From Cryobacterium sp. Y57 (GTDB taxonomy: Bacteria; Actinomycetota; Actinomycetes; Actinomycetales; Microbacteriaceae), in the NCBI RefSeq assembly GCF_002929505.1, contig NZ_PJJL01000067.1, positions 124,001 to 188,000 on the forward strand: DNA of 64,000 nt, read 5' to 3'. Below, piece by piece: positions 521 through 12,095 of the stretch. The notes under the pieces were generated by a model. It was not told where the DNA came from and searched no databases. It saw nothing but the letters and a program-made list of their open reading frames with translations. The position numbers were made by a program, and so were the translations under genes. Within the stretch, counting starts at the first letter, position 1. Each line of letters starts with the position of its first letter.

Positions 521-739
521 CTACCAGTGTGGTGGGCGATCCTGCCGCAGCTGTGCCTCGTTCGCGCTGGGCGCGCTTCCGGTGTGCGCCACGCCCCCCT
601 CTTCGCGGAGCACCGGCGGGTGCGGGTTCGGGTCGGTATCCGGTGCTGGCAGCAGCTTCGCGCGCCGAGCCGTGCCGCCAGACTTCACGATGGGCTGGCG
701 GGTCGATCCGAGGGGCGGCTTAGCCTCCGAACCGCTCAC
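521..739 (-). CDS. Small hypothetical protein coupled to the helicase-like gene
   Basis: A 72-residue ORF whose GTG start overlaps the stop of the large helicase-like gene by 4 bp (GTGA), an arrangement typical of translational coupling. The product is hydrophilic, rich in Pro, Arg and Asp, without membrane segments, and ends LRQDRPPHW. I do not recognise a domain and assign no function. It could be a chance ORF in GC-rich DNA, but the exact 4-bp overlap and the fact that it fills the gap down to mscL argue that it is real. Confidence 0.45.
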   Translation of the reverse strand: MSGSEAKPPLGSTRQPIVKSGGTARRAKLLPAPDTDPNPHPPVLREEGGVAHTGSAPSANEAQLRQDRPPHW

Positions 740-3700
740 GCGCCCGGACGTTTCGGGGTGATGGTGGAGGCGTCGCCGGTCGAAAAGGGCCGGGCATCCG
801 CTAGCGGAACACCAGCGATTGCGGCCACGCGTGCCGCAACGGCGTCGGGGTTGCTGAAGAGTTCGAAGCTATGCACGCGCAGGTAGTGCCAGCCGAGCCG
901 GCGCAGCACCTCAGGGCGCAGCCGCAACGACTCGCGCAGGCTGGCCCGATTGACGACGGCATCCGTTTCGACCACGATCGCGCGGGTTCCGTAAGACGCG
1001 GCCAGGGCGAGCTTGCCACGGTGGCCGAGGCGCACACTGAGACCGAGCTTTTCGAGACGCTTGCCGAGATCGACCAGCATGGCTTCGCTCGCGTCGGGAA
1101 CCAGCACCTCGTCACGACGAGCTTCGGTCTCGCTGAGAACCTGAGACAGGGCGAGGATACCGTGACGCTGGCGGTCTTCGTCAATGTCGGCGGGGCGAAA
1201 GCAGGAGACGATGTCCAGCGCGCGACGTGCACGGGTCATGCCGATCGCGAGCAGGCGTTCACCACCGGGTTCACCGAGGGAACCGAAGTTCGACAGCAGA
1301 CGACCGTGCGGGGTGCGGCCGTAGCCGATCGAGAAGATGACGCGGTCGCGGCTCTGTGCCACAGCCTGCTCGAGGGTGAGTACGGTGAACGGTTCGCTGC
1401 GGTCTTTGAGAATGAAATCGGAGAGGTCGGTGCGCTTGGCAAACGCCGCGAGCACGGCCTGCTGCACCCGCACGGCATGCCGGGTGCTTGCGGTGATCAC
1501 CATGAGCGATTCGCGCGGACGCTTTGAGGCGTGGTCGAGCACAAGGTCGACGACCTTAACGACCTCCGCGTCGACGCTCTCGATGGCGCCGCTATCGGCG
1601 TCGGGCATGCCGCGGCCGCCGGCCACATAGTTGATGGTGAGGCTTCCGTGGCCGAGATAACTTCCGGCCCAGGGCAGGGAGTCGATGCGTCCGCCGTAGA
1701 AGCGGTGGTTGACCAGCTCGGCGAGATCCTCACCGCCAGCCCGGTAGCTGCGGGTGAGGGTGAGAGTCGGCAGCAACTCGCCGAGACGGGCCAGGGCAGA
1801 ATCGGCGTGCAGGGCGTCCACCGATGCGTCAGGCGCGGCGGTGTCCCCCGAGCCGGCAATGCCGGTTTCGAAGGCGGACGGCGTCTGGGTGACCGGATCG
1901 CCGAACGCTACGATCTGTCGGCCACGGCGAATCGCACCGACGTTCTCGGCCAGGGTCGTGGCTCCGGCGTCGACCAGCAGCACGGTGTCGAACGTGATCT
2001 GGTCGCTGATTCCGGCGATTTCGTAGGGTGAGGCCAGCCAGACCGGGGCAAGCACTCGACCGAGGTGCGGTGCAACCTCATTGAGCCGGGCTGGGGTGGC
2101 ACGGTCGGCGCGCAGCAGGCGGCGCAACTGGTCCGCCTCCTCGGGAAAGTCGACGACGCCGATCTTCCACGTTTCGGCGAGCAGCCAGGCCAGCAACTTG
2201 CCGGTAGCGGATGCGTGCGCTTCGTCGACGAGTTTGAAATCCGCCTCGAGGCGGTCCAGTACCTGGGTGTTGGCGCCCAGCAGTGCCCGGTCGCTCGCAA
2301 GCATGATCTCGAGCACGGACTGCCACCAGGCCAGCTCGAGCTCGACGGCGACGTTCTCTTCCGACACGTGGCGCTGGGACAGGTCGGTCATCAGCGGGTC
2401 GAGGTTGTGCTCGCGCAACGTCGCCAGCAGCGCTGTGCGCTCGTGCAGGTTCGCGAGCACCTCGCTCTCAGCGGCGAGGCCGGAGATCATCGAGACGAGC
2501 TCATTCAGCTGACGCCCGGCAAGGGCTCGGGGCGTACCGCTGGTGCCGAGCGGAATGTCGAGCAGACCGAGGTCTTCCCACACTCGCTGAAATGCAACGT
2601 GCACGTCGTTGATGCCCACCGGCACCTCCGGAGTAACACCGGCGGCCGCATAGCGCTGCCAGAGCGTGCGCTGGCCCTGGATGCGCCGCAGGCTCTCGTT
2701 CATGTCGGTCACCCGCACGCCGGGGCGCTGGTATTCCTCGGCGAGCTTGCGCAGCCGACGCCGACTGGCCGAACTCATCTCAGACGATTCGCGCCGCGAT
2801 GACGTGGCGGCGATCAACTCGGTGAGAGACCGGTCGTAGACGCCGGGCTGAAATTTGTCGAGGGTTTCGCGAATATCCAGCAGCAGACGCAGGTAGATAC
2901 CGAGTTCATTGATCGTCTCGAACGGGCGCAACCGGGTCTGACCGATCAGGCCGTTGGCGCGTTCAAGCAGCCGCGGCAGTTCGATCTGGTTGATGCGTTT
3001 AGCGAGCTGGTGCGAGTTGGAGGCATCCGCCGTGGAGGTGAACGAGGCCCCGTACCAAGGCGAGTCGCCGGGCCCGTACCGAAACTCGCCAAGAACAGCG
3101 GCCTTGATCAGGGTGTTCGCGGCGGCCGACCGCGAATGTGCGAGAAGCTCGAGAGCGTGCCGGTCGAGACGAGCAGTGGTCGACGGCGGCTCGGGCAGCT
3201 GGGCGAGCCGGGCCAGTTCGCCCAGCGCGTCGAGCACAGAGACACCGAGAGCGGAGTCGCGACGAGTGAGCGCCGAACGGTAGTCGAGCAGCACCTTACG
3301 CAAGCGCACCAGGGCGTCATCGACGTCGCCGACCCGCGGCTGGGCCGCTTGCTCGTTTCGGGTGATCGACTGGATCAAGTCGCGGCGCAGGGTGCGCGGG
3401 GTCACGGCAATGCCGGGCAGACCCACTTGCACGAGGCGGCCGTGGATACCATCGAGGCTGGAGCGGCGGGCGCTCACCACGAGCACCCGCTTGTGCTGGG
3501 CCACGAGCGAGCCGATCGCGTTGACGATGGTTTGGGTGCCGCCGGTGCCGGGCAGCGTTTTCACAACGAGGGAGTTGCCGGCCGCGATCTGCGCGACGAC
3601 GTTCTCCTGCTCGGAGTCGGCGTCACCGAGCAGCGTGTCTGTGGCGGGCGGACGGGCGTCTTGGCCGATCGGTACGACCGGATTATACGCGGTCTCGATG

Positions 3701-4512
3701 TTGCGCCGAGCGGTCATGTTACCGGCAACGGCGTCGAGCAAAGGGTGGTCGAGCGATGAGGCATCGGCGGCCAGCGCCCGGCCGACATCGGCGAAGCTCG
3801 ATACCACCAGGCGCGGTACGACATTGAACCAGGGCAGGTGCGAGGTAAGCCCGCGTAGCCGATCAATGACCGGCTGCGGCTTGAACGCACCATTGGTGAC
3901 GGCGAGCGCCACGAAAGCGTCGGCGTCGAGCACGATCTGAAACTGGTCCTTCAAGGCTCGGGCAAGCTCAGGGTTGAGAAAGGGCTGACCTTTGAGCTTG
4001 AGCTCGTAGTCGCGTCCATACCGGCGAATAGCGAGGGGACGCAGCAGCACCGGGGCACTGTAGTCGACGTCTTGGTAACGCCACTCGGCGAGGCCGATGG
4101 CGAGGTTGACCGATTCGAGGCCGCGCATGGAGCGCAGTTCGATGCCCTTCTGGGTGATCTCGTTCGCGGCCAAACGGGCGTTGCGCAGCGCCAGCTCGTC
4201 GCGAATGAGGTTGGACAACAGGGTGGTCTTGCCGATGATGAACTGTGGCAGGCCGCCGGGGTGCGTGGCGCTGAGTTCGATGCGGGTGCGAGCCTCGTCG
4301 GTGAAGTGCAGCAGCGGCGAACGACCGCCGAGCGCGGCGAGTTCGTCGCGCCAGCGCTGCCAGACCGGCTCAGCAATATTCCCGGCCGTGAAGGCCGGGT
4401 CGCCCAGGCTGAGGTTGTGTGGACTGGTCACGTTTTGCGGGTCGACAGGGACGGCGCCCAGGTACTTGGAAAGCACGTCGTCGTCGTCTTGTTTTTTATC
4501 GAGGTGCCACAC
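736..4512 (-). CDS. DUF4011/AAA-type helicase-like protein with eroded Walker motifs
   Basis: A 1258-residue protein with the layout of large SF1 (UPF1-like) DUF4011 helicases. It has an N-terminal DUF4011-like region (about 50-290), an ATPase core split by a long helical insert (about 300-1130), and a C-terminal endonuclease-like domain (about 1140-1240, ending near LRRLGWHYLRVHSFELF). Late helicase motifs are recognisable: VAFGDPVTQTPSAF (III), LTRSYRAGGEDLAELVN (IV), DRVIFSIGYGRTP (V) and LAIGMTRARRALD (VI). The P-loop at about residue 320 reads LPGTGGTQT, where PPGTGKSQT is expected, so the catalytic lysine is missing. Motif II (FDTVLLVDAG) lacks the usual DEAS. It may therefore bind nucleic acid or act as a scaffold without hydrolysing ATP. 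The neighbouring genes do not reveal its role. Confidence 0.75.
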   Translation of the reverse strand: MWHLDKKQDDDDVLSKYLGAVPVDPQNVTSPHNLSLGDPAFTAGNIAEPVWQRWRDELAALGGRSPLLHFTDEARTRIELSATHPGGLPQFIIGKTTLLSNLIRDELALRNARLAANEITQKGIELRSMRGLESVNLAIGLAEWRYQDVDYSAPVLLRPLAIRRYGRDYELKLKGQPFLNPELARALKDQFQIVLDADAFVALAVTNGAFKPQPVIDRLRGLTSHLPWFNVVPRLVVSSFADVGRALAADASSLDHPLLDAVAGNMTARRNIETAYNPVVPIGQDARPPATDTLLGDADSEQENVVAQIAAGNSLVVKTLPGTGGTQTIVNAIGSLVAQHKRVLVVSARRSSLDGIHGRLVQVGLPGIAVTPRTLRRDLIQSITRNEQAAQPRVGDVDDALVRLRKVLLDYRSALTRRDSALGVSVLDALGELARLAQLPEPPSTTARLDRHALELLAHSRSAAANTLIKAAVLGEFRYGPGDSPWYGASFTSTADASNSHQLAKRINQIELPRLLERANGLIGQTRLRPFETINELGIYLRLLLDIRETLDKFQPGVYDRSLTELIAATSSRRESSEMSSASRRRLRKLAEEYQRPGVRVTDMNESLRRIQGQRTLWQRYAAAGVTPEVPVGINDVHVAFQRVWEDLGLLDIPLGTSGTPRALAGRQLNELVSMISGLAAESEVLANLHERTALLATLREHNLDPLMTDLSQRHVSEENVAVELELAWWQSVLEIMLASDRALLGANTQVLDRLEADFKLVDEAHASATGKLLAWLLAETWKIGVVDFPEEADQLRRLLRADRATPARLNEVAPHLGRVLAPVWLASPYEIAGISDQITFDTVLLVDAGATTLAENVGAIRRGRQIVAFGDPVTQTPSAFETGIAGSGDTAAPDASVDALHADSALARLGELLPTLTLTRSYRAGGEDLAELVNHRFYGGRIDSLPWAGSYLGHGSLTINYVAGGRGMPDADSGAIESVDAEVVKVVDLVLDHASKRPRESLMVITASTRHAVRVQQAVLAAFAKRTDLSDFILKDRSEPFTVLTLEQAVAQSRDRVIFSIGYGRTPHGRLLSNFGSLGEPGGERLLAIGMTRARRALDIVSCFRPADIDEDRQRHGILALSQVLSETEARRDEVLVPDASEAMLVDLGKRLEKLGLSVRLGHRGKLALAASYGTRAIVVETDAVVNRASLRESLRLRPEVLRRLGWHYLRVHSFELFSNPDAVAARVAAIAGVPLADARPFSTGDASTITPKRPGA

Positions 4513-5608: not shown

Positions 5609-5670
5609 CGGCTCTCCTTGTTCGATCTTCTAGTGTGTCATTCGCCTCCACCGCCCGGTAACGTTTGAAG

Positions 5671-6276
5671 GTGCCGCAACCGGATGTCTCCCTTTTTCTG
5701 GCTCCACGCGCGCCGCTCCCCCAAACGGACCGCGCACGACTCGCCGCCGCCGTTGCCCGGGTCTGCCCGACGTCGGGCCCGGTCATCGTTCAGCAGCGCT
5801 GCGAGCGCTGCGGCGGAGCGCATGGTCGCCCACGCGTACTCGCACCCGACGGGGTGCACGTGAGTCTGAGCCGCGCCGGCGACACAATGGTTGTGGCCGT
5901 ATCGGTGGTCGGGCCGATCGGTGTTGACCTCGAGAGCATCAGCGCCGTCGGGCGCGCCGGGTTCGACGACGTGGCCTTCAACGCGCTCGAGCGCGCGGCG
6001 CTGTTCGAAATACCTTTCTCCGACCGCAATCGGGCGCGCGCGGGCCTCTGGACGACGAAGGAGGCGCTGCTCAAGTTATCGGGTGAAGGGCTGACGGTGG
6101 ACCCGCGGCACGTGACGGTGGGGTGGACTGGCGCGGGAGCATCCGTTTTGCTGGACTGGCCCACGGCCACCCTCGATCTGGCTCGGGTGCACTTGGCGAA
6201 TTTCGACGCCGGCCCCGGCCTGATCGGCACACTCGCCGTGCTCGGCGGGGCGGCCCCACGAATATCGGTGCGTTAG
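5671..6276 (+). CDS. 4'-phosphopantetheinyl transferase family protein
   Basis: Transfers 4'-phosphopantetheine from CoA to a serine of carrier proteins. Sfp-type hallmarks are present in order: RCERCGGAHGRP (about 45), the Mg-binding GVDLE (about 88), and WTTKEALLK (about 128). The length of about 200 residues fits the family. The start is uncertain: GTG at 5671 or TTG at 5665, neither with a clear Shine-Dalgarno. The gene converges on the M1 peptidase gene with a 4-bp stop-stop overlap. The next operon encodes a synthetase with a carrier domain, so this enzyme is the obvious candidate to activate it; that link is inference from proximity. Confidence 0.88.
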   Translation: MPQPDVSLFLAPRAPLPQTDRARLAAAVARVCPTSGPVIVQQRCERCGGAHGRPRVLAPDGVHVSLSRAGDTMVVAVSVVGPIGVDLESISAVGRAGFDDVAFNALERAALFEIPFSDRNRARAGLWTTKEALLKLSGEGLTVDPRHVTVGWTGAGASVLLDWPTATLDLARVHLANFDAGPGLIGTLAVLGGAAPRISVR

Positions 6277-7601
6277 AGGCTCGGCAGCGCGCTCTGCTGC
6301 ACCCAGCGCGCGACGAAGCCGCCGATCGCCCGACTGCCGGTGTGTTCGGAGAAGAAATCTACGAAGTCGTCGGTCGAGACCTGCCCGTGTCGCCGAGCCG
6401 CCGTGTAGGCGCGCAGTGCCGCGAAGAAGGCCTCGTCACCGAGAGATTTGCGAATGGCGTGCAGGGCGAGTGCGCCTCGTTTGTAGACACGGTCATCGAA
6501 CATGGCGTGCGGGCCGGGGTCGCCGACGACGATGTCGCGGGGCAGTGCCGCCACCCGGCCGCGGTGCAGCACCGCGAGGGCGTCGGCCGTGCGACCACCG
6601 CGCTGCTCCTCCCAGAGCCATTCCGCGTAGCACGCGAAACCCTCCTGCAACCAGATGTCCTGCCAGCGGGCCACGGTCAGGCTGTTGCCGTACCACTGGT
6701 GCGCCAGCTCATGGGCGATCAGGCGGTCGCTACCATGGTTGCCGTCAACATGGTTGCTGCCGAATATGGCCAGGCCGTGGGCCTCGAGTGGAATCTCCAA
6801 CTCGTCCTCGGTCACGACGACGGAGTAGGACGCGAACGGATAGGACCCGAACCGGTCGGCGAAGAACGCGATCATCTCGGTGAGGCGGGCGAAGTCGGTT
6901 TCGACACGGGTTGCGAGTCGGGCGGGAAAGTACAGGTTGTACGCGACCGGAGCGTCGGCCTGGTCGCGGCGGCGGTAGCGGCCGATCAGCACTGTGGCGA
7001 GATAGGTCGCCATCGGCTCGCGCACATCGAAGGTCCAGCTGGTACGGCCGGAGCGGCTCGACCGACTCGAGAGCACCCCGTTCGACACCACGGTATAGGC
7101 CGATTCGCAGGCGATCTCGATGCGATAGGTGGCCTTGTCGCTCGGATGGTCGTTGCACGGAAACCAGGACGCGGCACCACAGGGCTGCCCGGAGACGAGC
7201 ACGCCGTCATCGAGTTCTTCCCAGCCCACGTCACCCCAGGCGCTGCGCACCGGATGCGGCGCCCCGCGATAACGCACCATCACCTCGAACACGGCCTCGG
7301 CCGCGATCGTCGTGGCGGGACTGATGACGAGTTTGCGTGACGAGTGCGTCACCTTGGACGGCCGCACACCGTTCACCAGTACTTTTTCGATGCTCAGCCC
7401 CGCGAAGTCGAGGCTGAACCGGTCGAGGGGCATGAGGGCGCGTGCGGTGATGATCGCGGTCGCGTTCAAGCGGTTGGTGGCTACCCGATAGGAGAGGTTC
7501 AGGTCGTAATGTTCCGCCCTGTAGCCGCCATTGCCGCCGGTGGGAATATAGGGGTCGCCAGCGCTAATCGAGCCGTAGGTCGTGCGTTCAGTCTGAGCCA
7601 T
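6273..7601 (-). CDS. M1-family zinc metallopeptidase
   Basis: A 442-residue gluzincin of the aminopeptidase N family. The zinc site is complete: HELAHQWYG (HExxH) followed about 18 residues later by the third ligand in WLQEGFACYAEW. The usual GxMEN substrate motif is replaced by LEAHGLAIFG, so specificity may differ from PepN. No signal peptide is evident. The length is about half that of full PepN, as in the short actinobacterial M1 forms. It lies 18 bp downstream of the Pls/PosA-type synthetase on the same strand, almost certainly in one operon. That placement suggests it trims, degrades or gives immunity against the poly-amino-acid product (inference). Confidence 0.88.
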   Translation of the reverse strand: MAQTERTTYGSISAGDPYIPTGGNGGYRAEHYDLNLSYRVATNRLNATAIITARALMPLDRFSLDFAGLSIEKVLVNGVRPSKVTHSSRKLVISPATTIAAEAVFEVMVRYRGAPHPVRSAWGDVGWEELDDGVLVSGQPCGAASWFPCNDHPSDKATYRIEIACESAYTVVSNGVLSSRSSRSGRTSWTFDVREPMATYLATVLIGRYRRRDQADAPVAYNLYFPARLATRVETDFARLTEMIAFFADRFGSYPFASYSVVVTEDELEIPLEAHGLAIFGSNHVDGNHGSDRLIAHELAHQWYGNSLTVARWQDIWLQEGFACYAEWLWEEQRGGRTADALAVLHRGRVAALPRDIVVGDPGPHAMFDDRVYKRGALALHAIRKSLGDEAFFAALRAYTAARRHGQVSTDDFVDFFSEHTGSRAIGGFVARWVQQSALPSL

Positions 7602-7619
7602 CGTCTTACTATTCCTTGC

Positions 7620-10600
7620 TCAACGATCCCACGGCGGCTGGTGCCACGGCGTGATCGGGTTGCCCGACCAGAGCGAACCGGGCGGTACTCGTTCGCCGCG
7701 CATCACGAGAGAGCCGGGCCCGACCGTCGCCCCGGCATCGATGGACGCCGCCGGCAGGATGACTCCGTTCGGGCCGAGCGTGGCTCCTTCGGCGAGCACG
7801 ACCGCGTCGAGCTGCATGATGCGATCGTGAAACAGGTGGGTCTGCACGACACAGCCGCGGTTCACCGTGCTGCCGGCGCCCAGCCGCACCAAATCAGCTT
7901 CGGGCAGCCAGTACGTTTCGCACCAGACGCCCTTTCCCACGGTGGCACCGAGGGTGCTCAGCCATACGGCGAGCGCCGGTGTGCCTGAAGCTTTCTCCGC
8001 GAACCAGGGTCGGGCTACCATCTCGACGAAGCTGTCCGAGACCTCGTTGCGCCAGATGAATGAGGACCAGAGCGGATGCTCCGACGCGTCGATGCGCCCG
8101 ACCAGCGTCCACTTGACCACCGTCGTGACGCCGGCAGCCACCGCGCCGGCCGTGAGCATGACCACACCCGAGAGGCCGATCGCCGCGCCGAGGCCGAGCT
8201 GCAGCCATAGCAGGTCCAGCAGTGCGAGCACCAGCAGCGCGATCCACGCGGTGGTGAAGCCGGCGACGATGCGCAGTAGTTCCCACAGCGACCGGGCCAC
8301 TTTCAGGCGAACGGGAGGGTGGAAGGTTCGCGAGTCGTCGGCATCCGTTTGCCTGCGGCGCAGGCGGGCCGGCGGGTTGCCGAGCCAGCTCGAGCCGCGT
8401 TTGGCCTTGCGAGGTGTCGACGAAAGCACCGCGACCAGCCCGTTGCGCGGCACGGTGCGGCCGGGGCCGGCCATGCCGCTGTTGCCGAGAAAAGCCCGGC
8501 GGCCTACCTTGGCGGGCCCGATGTGCATCCAGCCGCCGCCGAGTTCGTAGCAGGCGACCATGGTGTCGTCGGCGAGGAATGCGGCTGGCGCGATGGTCGT
8601 CAGCGAGGGCAGCAGCAACACGGTCGATGCCTCGACATCGGCACCGACTTTAGCCCCGAGCAGCCGCAGCCAGGTGGGCGTGAGCAGGCTCGCGTAGACC
8701 GGAAACAACACGGTGCGGGCGCCGTCGAGGATACGTTCGGTCATCCAGACCTGCCAGCCGATGCGGCTGCGCACCGGATAGTAGCCCTCCCGCAGGCCCA
8801 CTCCGAGCCCGCGTACGAAGGCAATCACCAAAAGCGCGTAGGCGAGCCCGCCGACAACGACGGCTACCGGCATGATCAGGGCCGCGCGTAGCACGGCAAC
8901 GCCGAGGTTATCGGCATTGCCGACAGCGACGCCGACGATGAGCGCGCCGAGCACGATTGCGATCGTGGGGATGGCGGTCATCGCCACCGATCCGGCCGCG
9001 AAGGCGCCGAGCCAGCGACTAGCACGCGGCGGACGTTCAGCCGGCCACGGGCGGCGGCCCGACCCCACGCGGTGAGCAGGGGAACCGGCCCACCGCTCCC
9101 CGGCTGGTACACGCGACGAGACTACGGAACCGGGTTCAACCTCGGCGCCGTTGCCAACGTGGGCGCCCCCGAGTAGGGTGCTGCGGGAACCGATCCGGGC
9201 ATCGGCACCGACATGCACATGACCGATGCGCAGCACGTCTCCGTCGATCCAGTGCCCGGCCAGGTCGACCTCGGGTTCGATCGAGGCCTGGGCGCCGATG
9301 GTGAGCAGCCCGGTAACCGGGGGCAACGAGTGCAGGTCGACGTCGGAGCTGATCTCAGCGCCGAGAGCCCGCGCGTAGTAACTGATCCAGGGCGCCCCGG
9401 CGAGGCTCGCCGCGTCGACGAGCAGCGCGATCTGCTCGGCCAGCCACAGTCGCAAGTGCACGGACCCGCCCCGCGGATAGTTTCCAGGCATCACGTCGTG
9501 CAGCAACAGTCGGGCCGCCACGACGGCGATGAGCATTTTGCCGGGCGGGGTCACGAACAGCACAAATCCAAGCGCCACCCACCACCACGACAGGGTCGGG
9601 CCGAAGGTTGCGCCGGCCAGGCTGAGCAGATTGTTGGCGATGGCGAGGTAAACCAGCCAGCGGGCGCCGCTCAGCACATGCAGCGGAATGCCGAGCACTG
9701 TCTGTGCGAATTGGCTGCGAGCAGGCGTCGGCACCACCTGCCGTACTGCCGGCGGTGTCACGGGGGTGCGGGCGTCGAGTTCCTCGGCGAGCGACCCGAT
9801 CCGCGGGTGGTCGTACAAATCGGCGACGGTGGTTTCGGGGTGGCGGATGCGCACGGCCGACACGAATTGGGCGGCCGAGAGCGAGCCGCCGCCCTGGGCG
9901 AAGAAATCATCGTCGGGCCCGGTCACCGGCACCCCTAAAATCGAAGCCCATGCCTCCGCCAGCCAGGCCGCCGTCGGTGACAGCGCCCCAGCATCGTCGT
10001 CCGACCCGGGCTGGGAGGCGGGCAATGGCCACGGCAATGCCGCCCGGTCGACCTTGCCCGAGGTGCGGGTGGGTAGCGCATCGACAATGGCGAGCAGCGG
10101 CACGAGCGCGGCGGGCAGTTCTTCCCGCAGTCTGGCAATTGCGGCCTGCCGGTCGAAGGGCGTTCCGGCGGTCGCAAGGGCGATGTAGCCGACCAGAACG
10201 TGGTTGCCGGCAGGGGTGGTCTGCACCACGGTGGCACCGCCGGCCACTCCGTCGAGGACGCTTAGGGCGGCATCCACTTCGCCGAGCTCGATACGTCGCC
10301 CGCCGAGTTTCACCTGGTCGTCGGCGCGGCCGGCGAAGACCAGACCGGCTCGGTCGAAACGCACGAGGTCGCCGCTACGGTAGGCGCGGCGCCAGCCGAG
10401 CTCGTCGTGCGGAGCATACTTCTCGGCGTCTTTCTCGGCGTCGAGGTAACGGGCCAGACCCACGCCGCCGATGATGAGCTCGCCGGTCTCTCCCTCGGCG
10501 ACCCGGTTGCCGTGGGCGTCGACGACGGCGAGGTCCCAGCCGTCAAGCGGCAGGCCAATGCGCATCTCACCGACACCGTCGACGAGTGCGCCGCAGGCCA

Positions 10601-11579
10601 CGACGGTCGCTTCGGTGGGGCCGTAGGTGTTCCACACTTCCCGGCCACGGGCATTGATGCGGGCGACCAGTTCGGGCGGGCAGGCCTCGCCGCCGAAGAT
10701 CAGCAGCCGCACTGCCTCGAGTGATTCTTCCGGCCAGAGTGCGGCGAGGGTTGGCACGGTCGAGACGACGGTGATGCCGTGGGCGATCAGCCAGGGACCA
10801 AGGTCGGCACCGCTGCGCACCAGGGAGCGCGGGGCCGGCACCAGGCAGGCGCCGTTGCGCCAGGCCAGCCACATCTCTTCGCAGCTCGCGTCGAAGGCCA
10901 CGGACAGGCCGGCCAGAACCCGGTCGCTGGTGCCAATCGGCTCGTCGCGCAGGAACAGTCCGGCCTCGGCGTCTACAAAGGCGGCCGCTGAACGATGCGT
11001 GACCGCGACGCCCTTGGGTAAGCCCGTCGAGCCGGAGGTGAAGATGATCCATGCGTCATCGCCGGGCGTGGGAATGCTGCCATCCGGAAAGACCAACGCC
11101 GGGTCGTCGTGCGGCGACACGGGGCGTCCCCGGAGCGACTGCAGGTCGAGGCCCGCGCGCGGCGCAAAAAAACTGCTCTCCCCGATGATGCCGACCACAT
11201 GGGCCTCGGCAAAGACCAGCCGTGCGCGTTCTTCCGGGTCGTCGGCGTCGACTGGAACGTAGGCGGCCCCCACGAACAACGTGGCCAGAATCGACACATA
11301 CAGGTCGCGCGTACCGGAGGGAATGCGAATGCCCACGGTGTCCCCTCGGCGCACTCCGGCCAGGCTCAGCGCGTTCGCCTGGGCCTGCACGCGCTGCAGC
11401 ATGCCGCGATAGCTGATGGTGCCAGCCGCGTCTTCCAGGGCCAGGGCATCGGGATGCTGCGCCGCGGTCTGCGAAAGGATGTCGACCAGGGTGCGGGCGG
11501 GCTTTGCCCGGTGGCCCGCCACGAGTACAGCCTGGGTATGCCCGCTGTCGCCCGCTGGGCTGTACTGGTGCTCGCTCAC
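7620..11579 (-). CDS. Pls/PosA-type single-module non-ribosomal peptide synthetase
   Basis: A 1319-residue membrane synthetase with the architecture of epsilon-poly-L-lysine synthetase (Pls). The adenylation domain (about 30-510) shows IIFTSGSTGLPKG, NTYGPTEA, YRSGDL and RTSGKVDR. The carrier domain has its phosphopantetheine serine in QGGGSLSAAQ (Ser at about 565). The remainder contains six hydrophobic segments arranged as pairs, separating three soluble blocks with hexapeptide beta-helix character (about 755-820, 985-1050, 1230-1300), matching the tandem acyltransferase-like domains of Pls. There is no canonical condensation or thioesterase domain. The expected product is a homopolymer of one amino acid built at the membrane; the monomer (Lys, Orn, Dab or other) cannot be read by eye. 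The GTG start at 11579 has a GAGGAG ahead of it. The M1 peptidase follows and a phosphopantetheinyl transferase lies beyond. Confidence 0.9.
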   Translation of the reverse strand: MSEHQYSPAGDSGHTQAVLVAGHRAKPARTLVDILSQTAAQHPDALALEDAAGTISYRGMLQRVQAQANALSLAGVRRGDTVGIRIPSGTRDLYVSILATLFVGAAYVPVDADDPEERARLVFAEAHVVGIIGESSFFAPRAGLDLQSLRGRPVSPHDDPALVFPDGSIPTPGDDAWIIFTSGSTGLPKGVAVTHRSAAAFVDAEAGLFLRDEPIGTSDRVLAGLSVAFDASCEEMWLAWRNGACLVPAPRSLVRSGADLGPWLIAHGITVVSTVPTLAALWPEESLEAVRLLIFGGEACPPELVARINARGREVWNTYGPTEATVVACGALVDGVGEMRIGLPLDGWDLAVVDAHGNRVAEGETGELIIGGVGLARYLDAEKDAEKYAPHDELGWRRAYRSGDLVRFDRAGLVFAGRADDQVKLGGRRIELGEVDAALSVLDGVAGGATVVQTTPAGNHVLVGYIALATAGTPFDRQAAIARLREELPAALVPLLAIVDALPTRTSGKVDRAALPWPLPASQPGSDDDAGALSPTAAWLAEAWASILGVPVTGPDDDFFAQGGGSLSAAQFVSAVRIRHPETTVADLYDHPRIGSLAEELDARTPVTPPAVRQVVPTPARSQFAQTVLGIPLHVLSGARWLVYLAIANNLLSLAGATFGPTLSWWWVALGFVLFVTPPGKMLIAVVAARLLLHDVMPGNYPRGGSVHLRLWLAEQIALLVDAASLAGAPWISYYARALGAEISSDVDLHSLPPVTGLLTIGAQASIEPEVDLAGHWIDGDVLRIGHVHVGADARIGSRSTLLGGAHVGNGAEVEPGSVVSSRVPAGERWAGSPAHRVGSGRRPWPAERPPRASRWLGAFAAGSVAMTAIPTIAIVLGALIVGVAVGNADNLGVAVLRAALIMPVAVVVGGLAYALLVIAFVRGLGVGLREGYYPVRSRIGWQVWMTERILDGARTVLFPVYASLLTPTWLRLLGAKVGADVEASTVLLLPSLTTIAPAAFLADDTMVACYELGGGWMHIGPAKVGRRAFLGNSGMAGPGRTVPRNGLVAVLSSTPRKAKRGSSWLGNPPARLRRRQTDADDSRTFHPPVRLKVARSLWELLRIVAGFTTAWIALLVLALLDLLWLQLGLGAAIGLSGVVMLTAGAVAAGVTTVVKWTLVGRIDASEHPLWSSFIWRNEVSDSFVEMVARPWFAEKASGTPALAVWLSTLGATVGKGVWCETYWLPEADLVRLGAGSTVNRGCVVQTHLFHDRIMQLDAVVLAEGATLGPNGVILPAASIDAGATVGPGSLVMRGERVPPGSLWSGNPITPWHQPPWDR

Positions 11580-11750: not shown

Positions 11751-12095
11751 TTACTCCAGCACCTTTGCCCGCGCCGTTTCCAAGGCACGCTCGCGCATCG
11801 CGAGGAACAGCGGAAAGGTGAAGGCGAAGGCGGTGACTCCCGACAGTGCGACATAAAGCCAGCCCCGCTTCATGCCGAGCCGTCGCGCCTCGACGATGAT
11901 CAGGATGCTCCCGGCCACCGCCGCGATGAGCAAGTCAACGGTGAGCGACGAGACCGCCGGTCCACTGTCCACCCAGTCGACGATGAAGTCGCGCATCTGC
12001 ACGATCGCGACAACGTTGTACGTCCAGGTCCCAGCGAGCCCGGCGAGACTCAGTCCGAGGTAGACGAGAGCGAGCGGCGTCCAGTGTTTGTTCAT
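11751..12095 (-). CDS. DUF2834 family membrane protein
   Basis: A 114-residue protein starting MNKHWTPLALVYL with three predicted membrane helices (about 6-28, 48-70 and 80-97) and the DUF2834-like arrangement WTYNVVA...FIVDW...DLLIAA. Function is unknown for the family. The frame is open upstream to 12152, but the ATG at 12095 gives an N-terminus beginning directly at the first helix, as in relatives. It stands upstream of the Pls/PosA gene on the same strand with a gap of about 170 bp, so co-transcription is possible but not evident. Confidence 0.75.
   Translation of the reverse strand: MNKHWTPLALVYLGLSLAGLAGTWTYNVVAIVQMRDFIVDWVDSGPAVSSLTVDLLIAAVAGSILIIVEARRLGMKRGWLYVALSGVTAFAFTFPLFLAMRERALETARAKVLE

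Follow-up and report, generated by a model that had tools for sequence, protein, structure and literature searches.

Operons that pair a poly(amino acid) synthetase gene (pls) with a gene for a degrading peptidase have been published from Streptomyces and Corynebacterium (PMC8117764, PMC9223678), and the locus that we describe here, from Cryobacterium sp. Y57, therefore belongs to a known kind. The Pls of Corynebacterium variabile, which has a peptidase in its operon, made epsilon-poly-L-lysine (epsilon-PL) of 26–35 residues in Streptomyces coelicolor, and the same account lists, in a survey of coryneform bacteria, Pls homologues in Arthrobacter, Microbacterium and Rhodococcus (PMC8117764). 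In PosA, the delta-poly-L-ornithine synthetase encoded by a single-gene operon, the C-terminus has been modelled as three left-handed beta-helices packed with three-fold symmetry (PMC10522769). According to a review, the catalytic mechanisms of Pls and of the polymer-degrading enzymes (Pld) are little known (PMC9205021). Literature on non-alpha poly(amino acids) (NAPAAs) and Microbacteriaceae reports a NAPAA cluster in Subtercola (PMC10303725); we found none linking Cryobacterium to NAPAAs or polylysine, in a search that did not cover phosphopantetheinyl transferase (PPTase) linkage or peptidase location. The stretch analysed (the window; 64,000 nt, positions 124001–188000 of contig C71 in genome G000, an assembly of 4.01 Mb in 73 contigs) carries a pls-like gene, a gene for an M1-family peptidase and a PPTase gene. 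We propose, with a probability of roughly 0.8, that the locus encodes a lysine-type cationic homopoly(amino acid) synthetase, most likely for epsilon-PL. Compared with the available text of the cited accounts, the additions are the genus-wide presence (34/37 genomes), the linkage of a third gene, that of the PPTase, in Micrococcales and a predicted cytosolic peptidase. The features are as follows, in window coordinates.

7620–11579, minus strand: pls-like gene for a lysine-type poly(amino acid) synthetase of 1319 residues, with an adenylation domain, a thiolation domain and three repeats of helix pair plus beta-helix block; called from TIGR02353 and the best PDB match, 7wew
10035–11474, minus strand: adenylation domain, residues 36–515; 62.8% identity to 7wew over 478 positions
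9780–9965, minus strand: carrier (thiolation) domain, residues 539–600; PF00550
7653–9707, minus strand: membrane polymerisation region, residues 625–1309 (TIGR02353); three beta-helix blocks between helix pairs
8481–8570, minus strand: stretch Asp1004–Asn1033 of the second block (C2), its two ends being the polar residues that are invariant in this block; putative functional stretch
7824–7844, minus strand: QTHLFHD in the third block (C3), with Gln1246, His1248 and Asp1252 invariant in 123 rows; predicted catalytic site
6273–7601, minus strand: M1-family zinc peptidase of 442 residues, PldII-like partner; Peptidase_M1 and Peptidase_M1_N matches
5665–6276, plus strand: PPTase of 203 residues, convergent; PF01648, 38.7 bits

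Open reading frame (ORF) calls and family scans agree with an earlier note on this DNA, which had placed an M1 peptidase 18 bp behind a Pls/PosA-like synthetase and a PPTase convergent beyond it. The gap between pls and the M1 gene, on the same strand, measured 18 nt, the stop codons of the M1 and PPTase genes overlap, and the PPTase, with its ACPS family match, starts at a TTG at 5665 (the earlier note had used the GTG at 5671). No full-length Pls match other than 7620–11579(-) was present in the genome, and the best named match to the synthetase came from Cryobacterium ruanii (90%). A scan of the locus for promoters and terminators gave no promoter-like and two terminator-like sites, not above shuffled sequences.

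The synthetase matched TIGR02353 ('Pls/PosA family') at 713.8 bits (cut-off 423.1) over residues 625–1309, as well as AMP-binding, PP-binding and Hexapep families. The closest solved relative of its adenylation domain is the epsilon-poly-L-lysine synthase 7wew (606.9 bits). Residues 230, 231, 234, 273, 294, 296, 318, 326, 327 and 509, located by what we take to be the GrsA motif anchors, form the pocket code DAESIGTVVK, which is identical in 7wew. This code was exact in 116 of 125 family rows; L023 differs by Ile to Val, and the remaining eight rows are distant members, 26–32% identical, with other pocket codes. In a tree of 37 adenylation domains, the query grouped with 7wew (support 99/98 for the 35 lysine-pocket rows), relative to just two outsiders with other pockets, both on long branches, and in the absence of the C. 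variabile Pls. The rest of the tree largely tracks host families, with the query inside Microbacteriaceae. The second pocket place is Ala in lysine enzymes and Met in PosA, whose code is DMEHNGTVSK (PMC10522769). Judged by its pocket, the enzyme is lysine-type (Pls-like) and not PosA-like. Pocket and phylogeny had been named beforehand as what could overturn the assignment; instead they place the query with the epsilon-PL synthetase, so that the Pls half of the original label 'Pls/PosA-like' holds and the PosA half falls. Downstream, the attachment residue of the carrier domain, Ser566 in FFAQGGGS, is invariant in 123 rows, a count that excludes L106 and 7wew and includes the eight distant members with other pockets.

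AlphaFold2 modelled residues 608–1319 (mean predicted local distance difference test score 89.5, predicted template modelling score 0.89, 70 aligned sequences) as three blocks of short strands separated by helix pairs. Pairs 2 and 3 were also clear in a hydropathy scan and pair 1 was partial. Model and family scans together support the domain order read previously, with adenylation and carrier domains followed by three helix-split blocks. A VIA-align comparison, which covered mainly the first block, matched it to serine acetyltransferases and other hexapeptide acyltransferases (Z 15.2, root-mean-square deviation 1.8, 96 aligned), and blocks 1 and 3 matched hexapeptide enzymes in a profile search. 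Reading C2 as a left-handed beta-helix as well follows from its strand pattern and from the published PosA model (PMC10522769) and is to be taken as a modelled assignment. The synthetase would thus share with PosA both its family and a predicted three-fold C-terminus of left-handed beta-helices, a unit that is not new because it has already been modelled for PosA (PMC10522769). Among the matches listed by Foldseek for the whole model, template modelling scores by query length were at most 0.16. An unrelated hexapeptide acyltransferase was considered and ruled out, as the hexapeptide fold is real but expected of a Pls C-terminus.

Only six polar residues of the polymerisation region are invariant in the 123 rows (Trp712, Asp1004, Asn1033, Gln1246, His1248 and Asp1252), and five of them sit in C2 and C3. 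This suggests that the six residues, including a QxHxxxD motif in C3, form the predicted bond-making site.

The peptidase gene accompanies pls closely. It lies downstream of pls on the same strand in 80/80 named loci, which are the best 80 of at least 592 relatives, and in the flank of 14/14 loci of a wider sample. In 71 of the 80, a possible M1 start is at most 60 nt away from the pls stop; the other nine are five Tsukamurella/Williamsia loci with genes 0.4–2.1 kb apart, L106 with its broken pls, one locus at 76 nt and two for which the short stretch scanned contained no start codon. In L106 (7001–10982, Cryobacterium ruanii) and at G029:C22:89598–93576, a frame change around residue 800–815 breaks pls in two, and M1 and PPTase match along nearly their full length, which may reflect a sequencing error or a recent loss of pls.

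M1 was found beside none of the eight distant Pls-family members in the fetched flanks. Their annotated neighbours, in those members that have any, differ, with a diaminobutyrate transaminase in two and a PPTase in one. The two with transaminase genes, L141 and L143 (pockets DFECLSAVTK and DFECLSVVTK; Streptomyces and the proteobacterium Skermanella), perhaps make diaminobutyrate polymers, given these neighbours. The Pls-family gene L120 4935–8954, on a plasmid of Streptomyces sp. NBC_00648, is followed by three hypothetical proteins of similar size and has the pocket DSECYGGVTK, the code of a Bdellovibrionales homologue with modest arginine activity (PMC10522769).

The zinc site of the Cryobacterium M1 is intact (HELAH at 297–301 and, after 18 residues, Glu320, that is HExxH-x18-E), as is Tyr373. 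At the place of what we take to be the GAMEN motif the protein reads E-I-P-L-E-A-H-G, which puts Glu273 there; the previous description of the peptidase as lacking GAMEN is literally right, but the Glu of that place is retained. This Glu and HExxH-x18-E are conserved in ≥97% of 112 aligned rows, most of which have P-[LIV]-E-A-[HQ] at the GAMEN place. The best solved relative by sequence is PDB 6a8z, 'zinc metalloprotease, putative' (186 bits, residues 9–441), presumably from Deinococcus radiodurans.

We compared the locus with the S. albulus Pls/PldII system by way of two Streptomyces loci, L116 and L117, which in the adenylation domain share 93.4% and 82.2% identity with 7wew. The query resembles them in domain order, pocket, adenylation domain and an M1 gene coupled downstream, the M1 starts of L116 and L117 overlapping the pls stop. 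In contrast, the query is only ∼52% identical overall to either synthetase, the L116 and L117 flanks yielded no PPTase, and the M1 N-termini of both loci read RRALLRG followed by a hydrophobic stretch, a twin-arginine-like start that the Cryobacterium M1 does not have. Both Streptomyces M1 proteins have 467 residues and P-V-E-N-Q at the GAMEN place; the reported 1404 bp of pldII (PMC9223678) imply the same length, and the N-termini fit the reported surface location of PldII (PMC9205021). The C. variabile Pls, compared by its description, is likewise actinobacterial, lysine-type and in an operon with a peptidase, whereas the available text of that account makes no mention of Cryobacterium, PPTase linkage or the peptidase N-terminus (PMC8117764).

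Among 112 M1 loci, L117 alone passed the limit of a hydropathy scan for export signals, followed by L033 (1.50) and L116 (1.36). The L033 value arises from residues that precede its likely start, and L116 shares the twin-arginine-like start of L117 by eye, in a viewing of the top 20 N-termini of the ranking and ten others. By hydropathy, the Cryobacterium M1 had no signal-like N-terminus and scored far below L117, L033 and L116; in the wider sample, 14/14 M1 proteins look cytosolic, our own included. The Cryobacterium peptidase is thus probably cytosolic, and M1 proteins outside the L116/L117 group would work inside the cell. As an export-signal-like N-terminus is missing, action in the cytoplasm is most likely, and not at the cell surface as reported for Streptomyces PldII; any protection of the cell, a role raised in the earlier note, would have to act inside it.

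The third gene follows a narrower pattern. We found a PPTase in the flank of 35 of the 80 named loci, comprising 35/40 from Micrococcales and 0/40 others; the latter include L054, a Rhodococcus metagenome-assembled genome mislabelled in the taxonomy table, and five of the 45 loci lacking the gene had less than 2.2 kb of flank left. It is downstream and convergent in 33/35 (the exceptions are L101, with the PPTase upstream of pls, and L078, with a same-strand PPTase), at up to 2.5 kb from M1. Clustering of flank ORFs, spurious antisense ORFs included, returned the PPTase as the commonest family, with 23 loci at the threshold used; none of the next families exceeded 17 loci, and they were mostly from one lineage, a few (two with 13 and 11 loci, for instance) being of mixed lineages in varying places.

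The Cryobacterium genome has two PF01648 genes, the linked one and an AcpS-like one flanked by glmS-like and alanine-racemase-like ORFs (names read from sequence). The linked protein carries the PF01648 domain and is distinct from AcpS, which places it in the Sfp type, and its sequence contains GVDLES and WxxKEA, presumably PPTase motifs. As the other PF01648 gene is AcpS-like, the linked PPTase probably primes Pls. Another PPTase linkage to a Pls-family gene occurs at L140 2300–6861, on a Sphingomonas parapaucimobilis plasmid, where a gene with the pocket DMEHNGTVTK has the PPTase directly downstream on the same strand.

To follow the three genes across genomes, we scored 37 Cryobacterium genomes, our own included. 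All three (M1 at >500 bits) were present in 34 and all absent in three, G001, G021 and G028, the only genus genomes without a full pls, the PPTase or such an M1; in G025, G027 and G029, pls is interrupted, either by a frame change or at the end of a contig. The PPTase and M1 genes are no more than 400 nt apart in 24 of the 34 genomes and no more than 10 kb apart in all of them. In 23 other genomes of the order, an M1 of >400 bits occurred in exactly the six with a Pls of >1400 bits. G046 has a Pls-family protein of 35% identity and large nonribosomal peptide synthetase genes, and no M1 of >400 bits, and G040 has an M1 paralogue of 247 bits without pls. PPTase matches occurred in eight of these order genomes, the six with lysine-type Pls and G046 and G052. 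Conservation of the three-gene set therefore holds for M1 beside pls and for all-or-none presence in the genus, and for PPTase linkage in Micrococcales only. In 14 chosen genomes, we counted a single PF01648 gene in 7/7 that lack lysine-type pls and either two or three in 7/7 that have it. A GlmS tree of 25 genomes did not unite the three pls-less Cryobacterium genomes and preferred two to three changes.

Overall, we favour a model where the PPTase would put the phosphopantetheine arm on Ser566 of the carrier, the adenylation domain would activate L-lysine, and M1, encoded beside the synthetase, would cut the polymer, acting in the cytoplasm on polymer that stays in or returns to the cell interior. 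Polymer production by the Cryobacterium locus is in this respect a prediction from sequence.

The alternative that survives best, although we consider it unlikely, is that lysine is activated but no secreted homopolymer results, the product being for example a short oligomer or a lysyl group attached to an acceptor in the membrane or cytosol, which the cytosolic M1 trims or recycles. The adenylation tree that mostly follows host families, the presence of the gene in 34/37 genus genomes and the M1 partners without signal-like N-termini (all except L116 and L117), which fit an internal role, would suit such a product, as would the report that no epsilon-PL was detectable in C. variabile culture (PMC8117764). 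However, the C. variabile enzyme did give epsilon-PL of 26–35 residues in S. coelicolor (PMC8117764), the polymerisation region shows conservation over its whole length and shares its invariant residues, and the patchiness of the gene in the phylum (14/296 genomes, own included, at E ≤ 1e-100) speaks against a general house-keeping role. Less probable still is a chance neighbourhood, with M1 and PPTase unrelated to pls. M1 stands beside three of six lysine-type plasmid records and is absent in the fetched flank of the other three (L118, L119 and L145), and the PPTase is unlinked outside Micrococcales and occurs in two order genomes without lysine-type Pls; against this, M1 is found in 80/80 named loci, the three genes are present or absent together across the 37 genus genomes, and the PPTase is the most frequent flank family at 23 loci, compared with at most 17, mostly single-lineage, for the next. 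That the enzyme is a PosA-like synthetase acting on ornithine or some other diamino acid, as the shared TIGR02353 model would allow, is very improbable and was rejected because of Ala231 in DAESIGTVVK in place of the Met of PosA (DMEHNGTVSK; PMC10522769), the member with a PosA-like pocket, L140, being only 31.2% identical with other neighbours.

Several observations weigh against the lysine-polymer synthetase that we prefer, in addition to the plasmid records without M1 and the 0/40 PPTase linkage outside Micrococcales. C. variabile itself gave no detectable epsilon-PL, so such genes may be silent (PMC8117764). The 80 named loci lean to close relatives, and at the scale of the phylum the gene is patchy, none of the three other genomes of the family in that sample matching at E ≤ 1e-100. 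As G046 and G052 have the PPTase without a lysine-type Pls, it is not tied to Pls everywhere. Four genomes in the PF01648 count (G037, G043, G045 and G053) were picked from PPTase-less genomes and are not independent, which leaves the three genus genomes as the fair test. The well-supported GlmS branches do not force more than one change, which makes a single loss in G001, G021 and G028 possible; the G028 assembly has 270 contigs and a completeness of only 91%. Finally, the export test was a hydropathy scan and not a trained predictor, and the case for the catalytic residues is an argument from invariance.

In the vicinity of the three genes, a DUF2834 protein of 114 residues (11751–12095, minus strand) is encoded on the strand of pls, 171 bp upstream of it. 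At 736–4512, also on the minus strand, lies a gene for a helicase-like protein of 1258 residues with a sub-threshold match to the MTES_1575 nuclease; it resembles parts of the candidate defence proteins PDC-S37 (308.6 bits) and Hhe (127.8 bits), scores far under the cut-off of NCBIfam ProA, and also occurs near corA in L036 and L106.

Poly-lysine serves as a natural food preservative. Cryobacterium is known for cold habitats, and with this locus the capacity for making lysine-type poly(amino acids) would extend across most of the genus (34/37 genomes). As a tentative and rather doubtful generalization, most Pls-bearing actinobacterial lineages might run an intracellular or membrane-side poly-lysine cycle, in which synthesis takes place at the membrane and a dedicated cytosolic M1 breaks the polymer down inside the cell, with a role in stress, storage or polyanion binding, and the secreted antibiotic and exported PldII of S. 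albulus would be derived. The locus bears on the natural role of these polymers, antibiotic or intracellular, of which the location of the peptidase decides much, as well as on whether Pls is activated by the linked PPTase and polymerisation takes place at QxHxxxD in C3.

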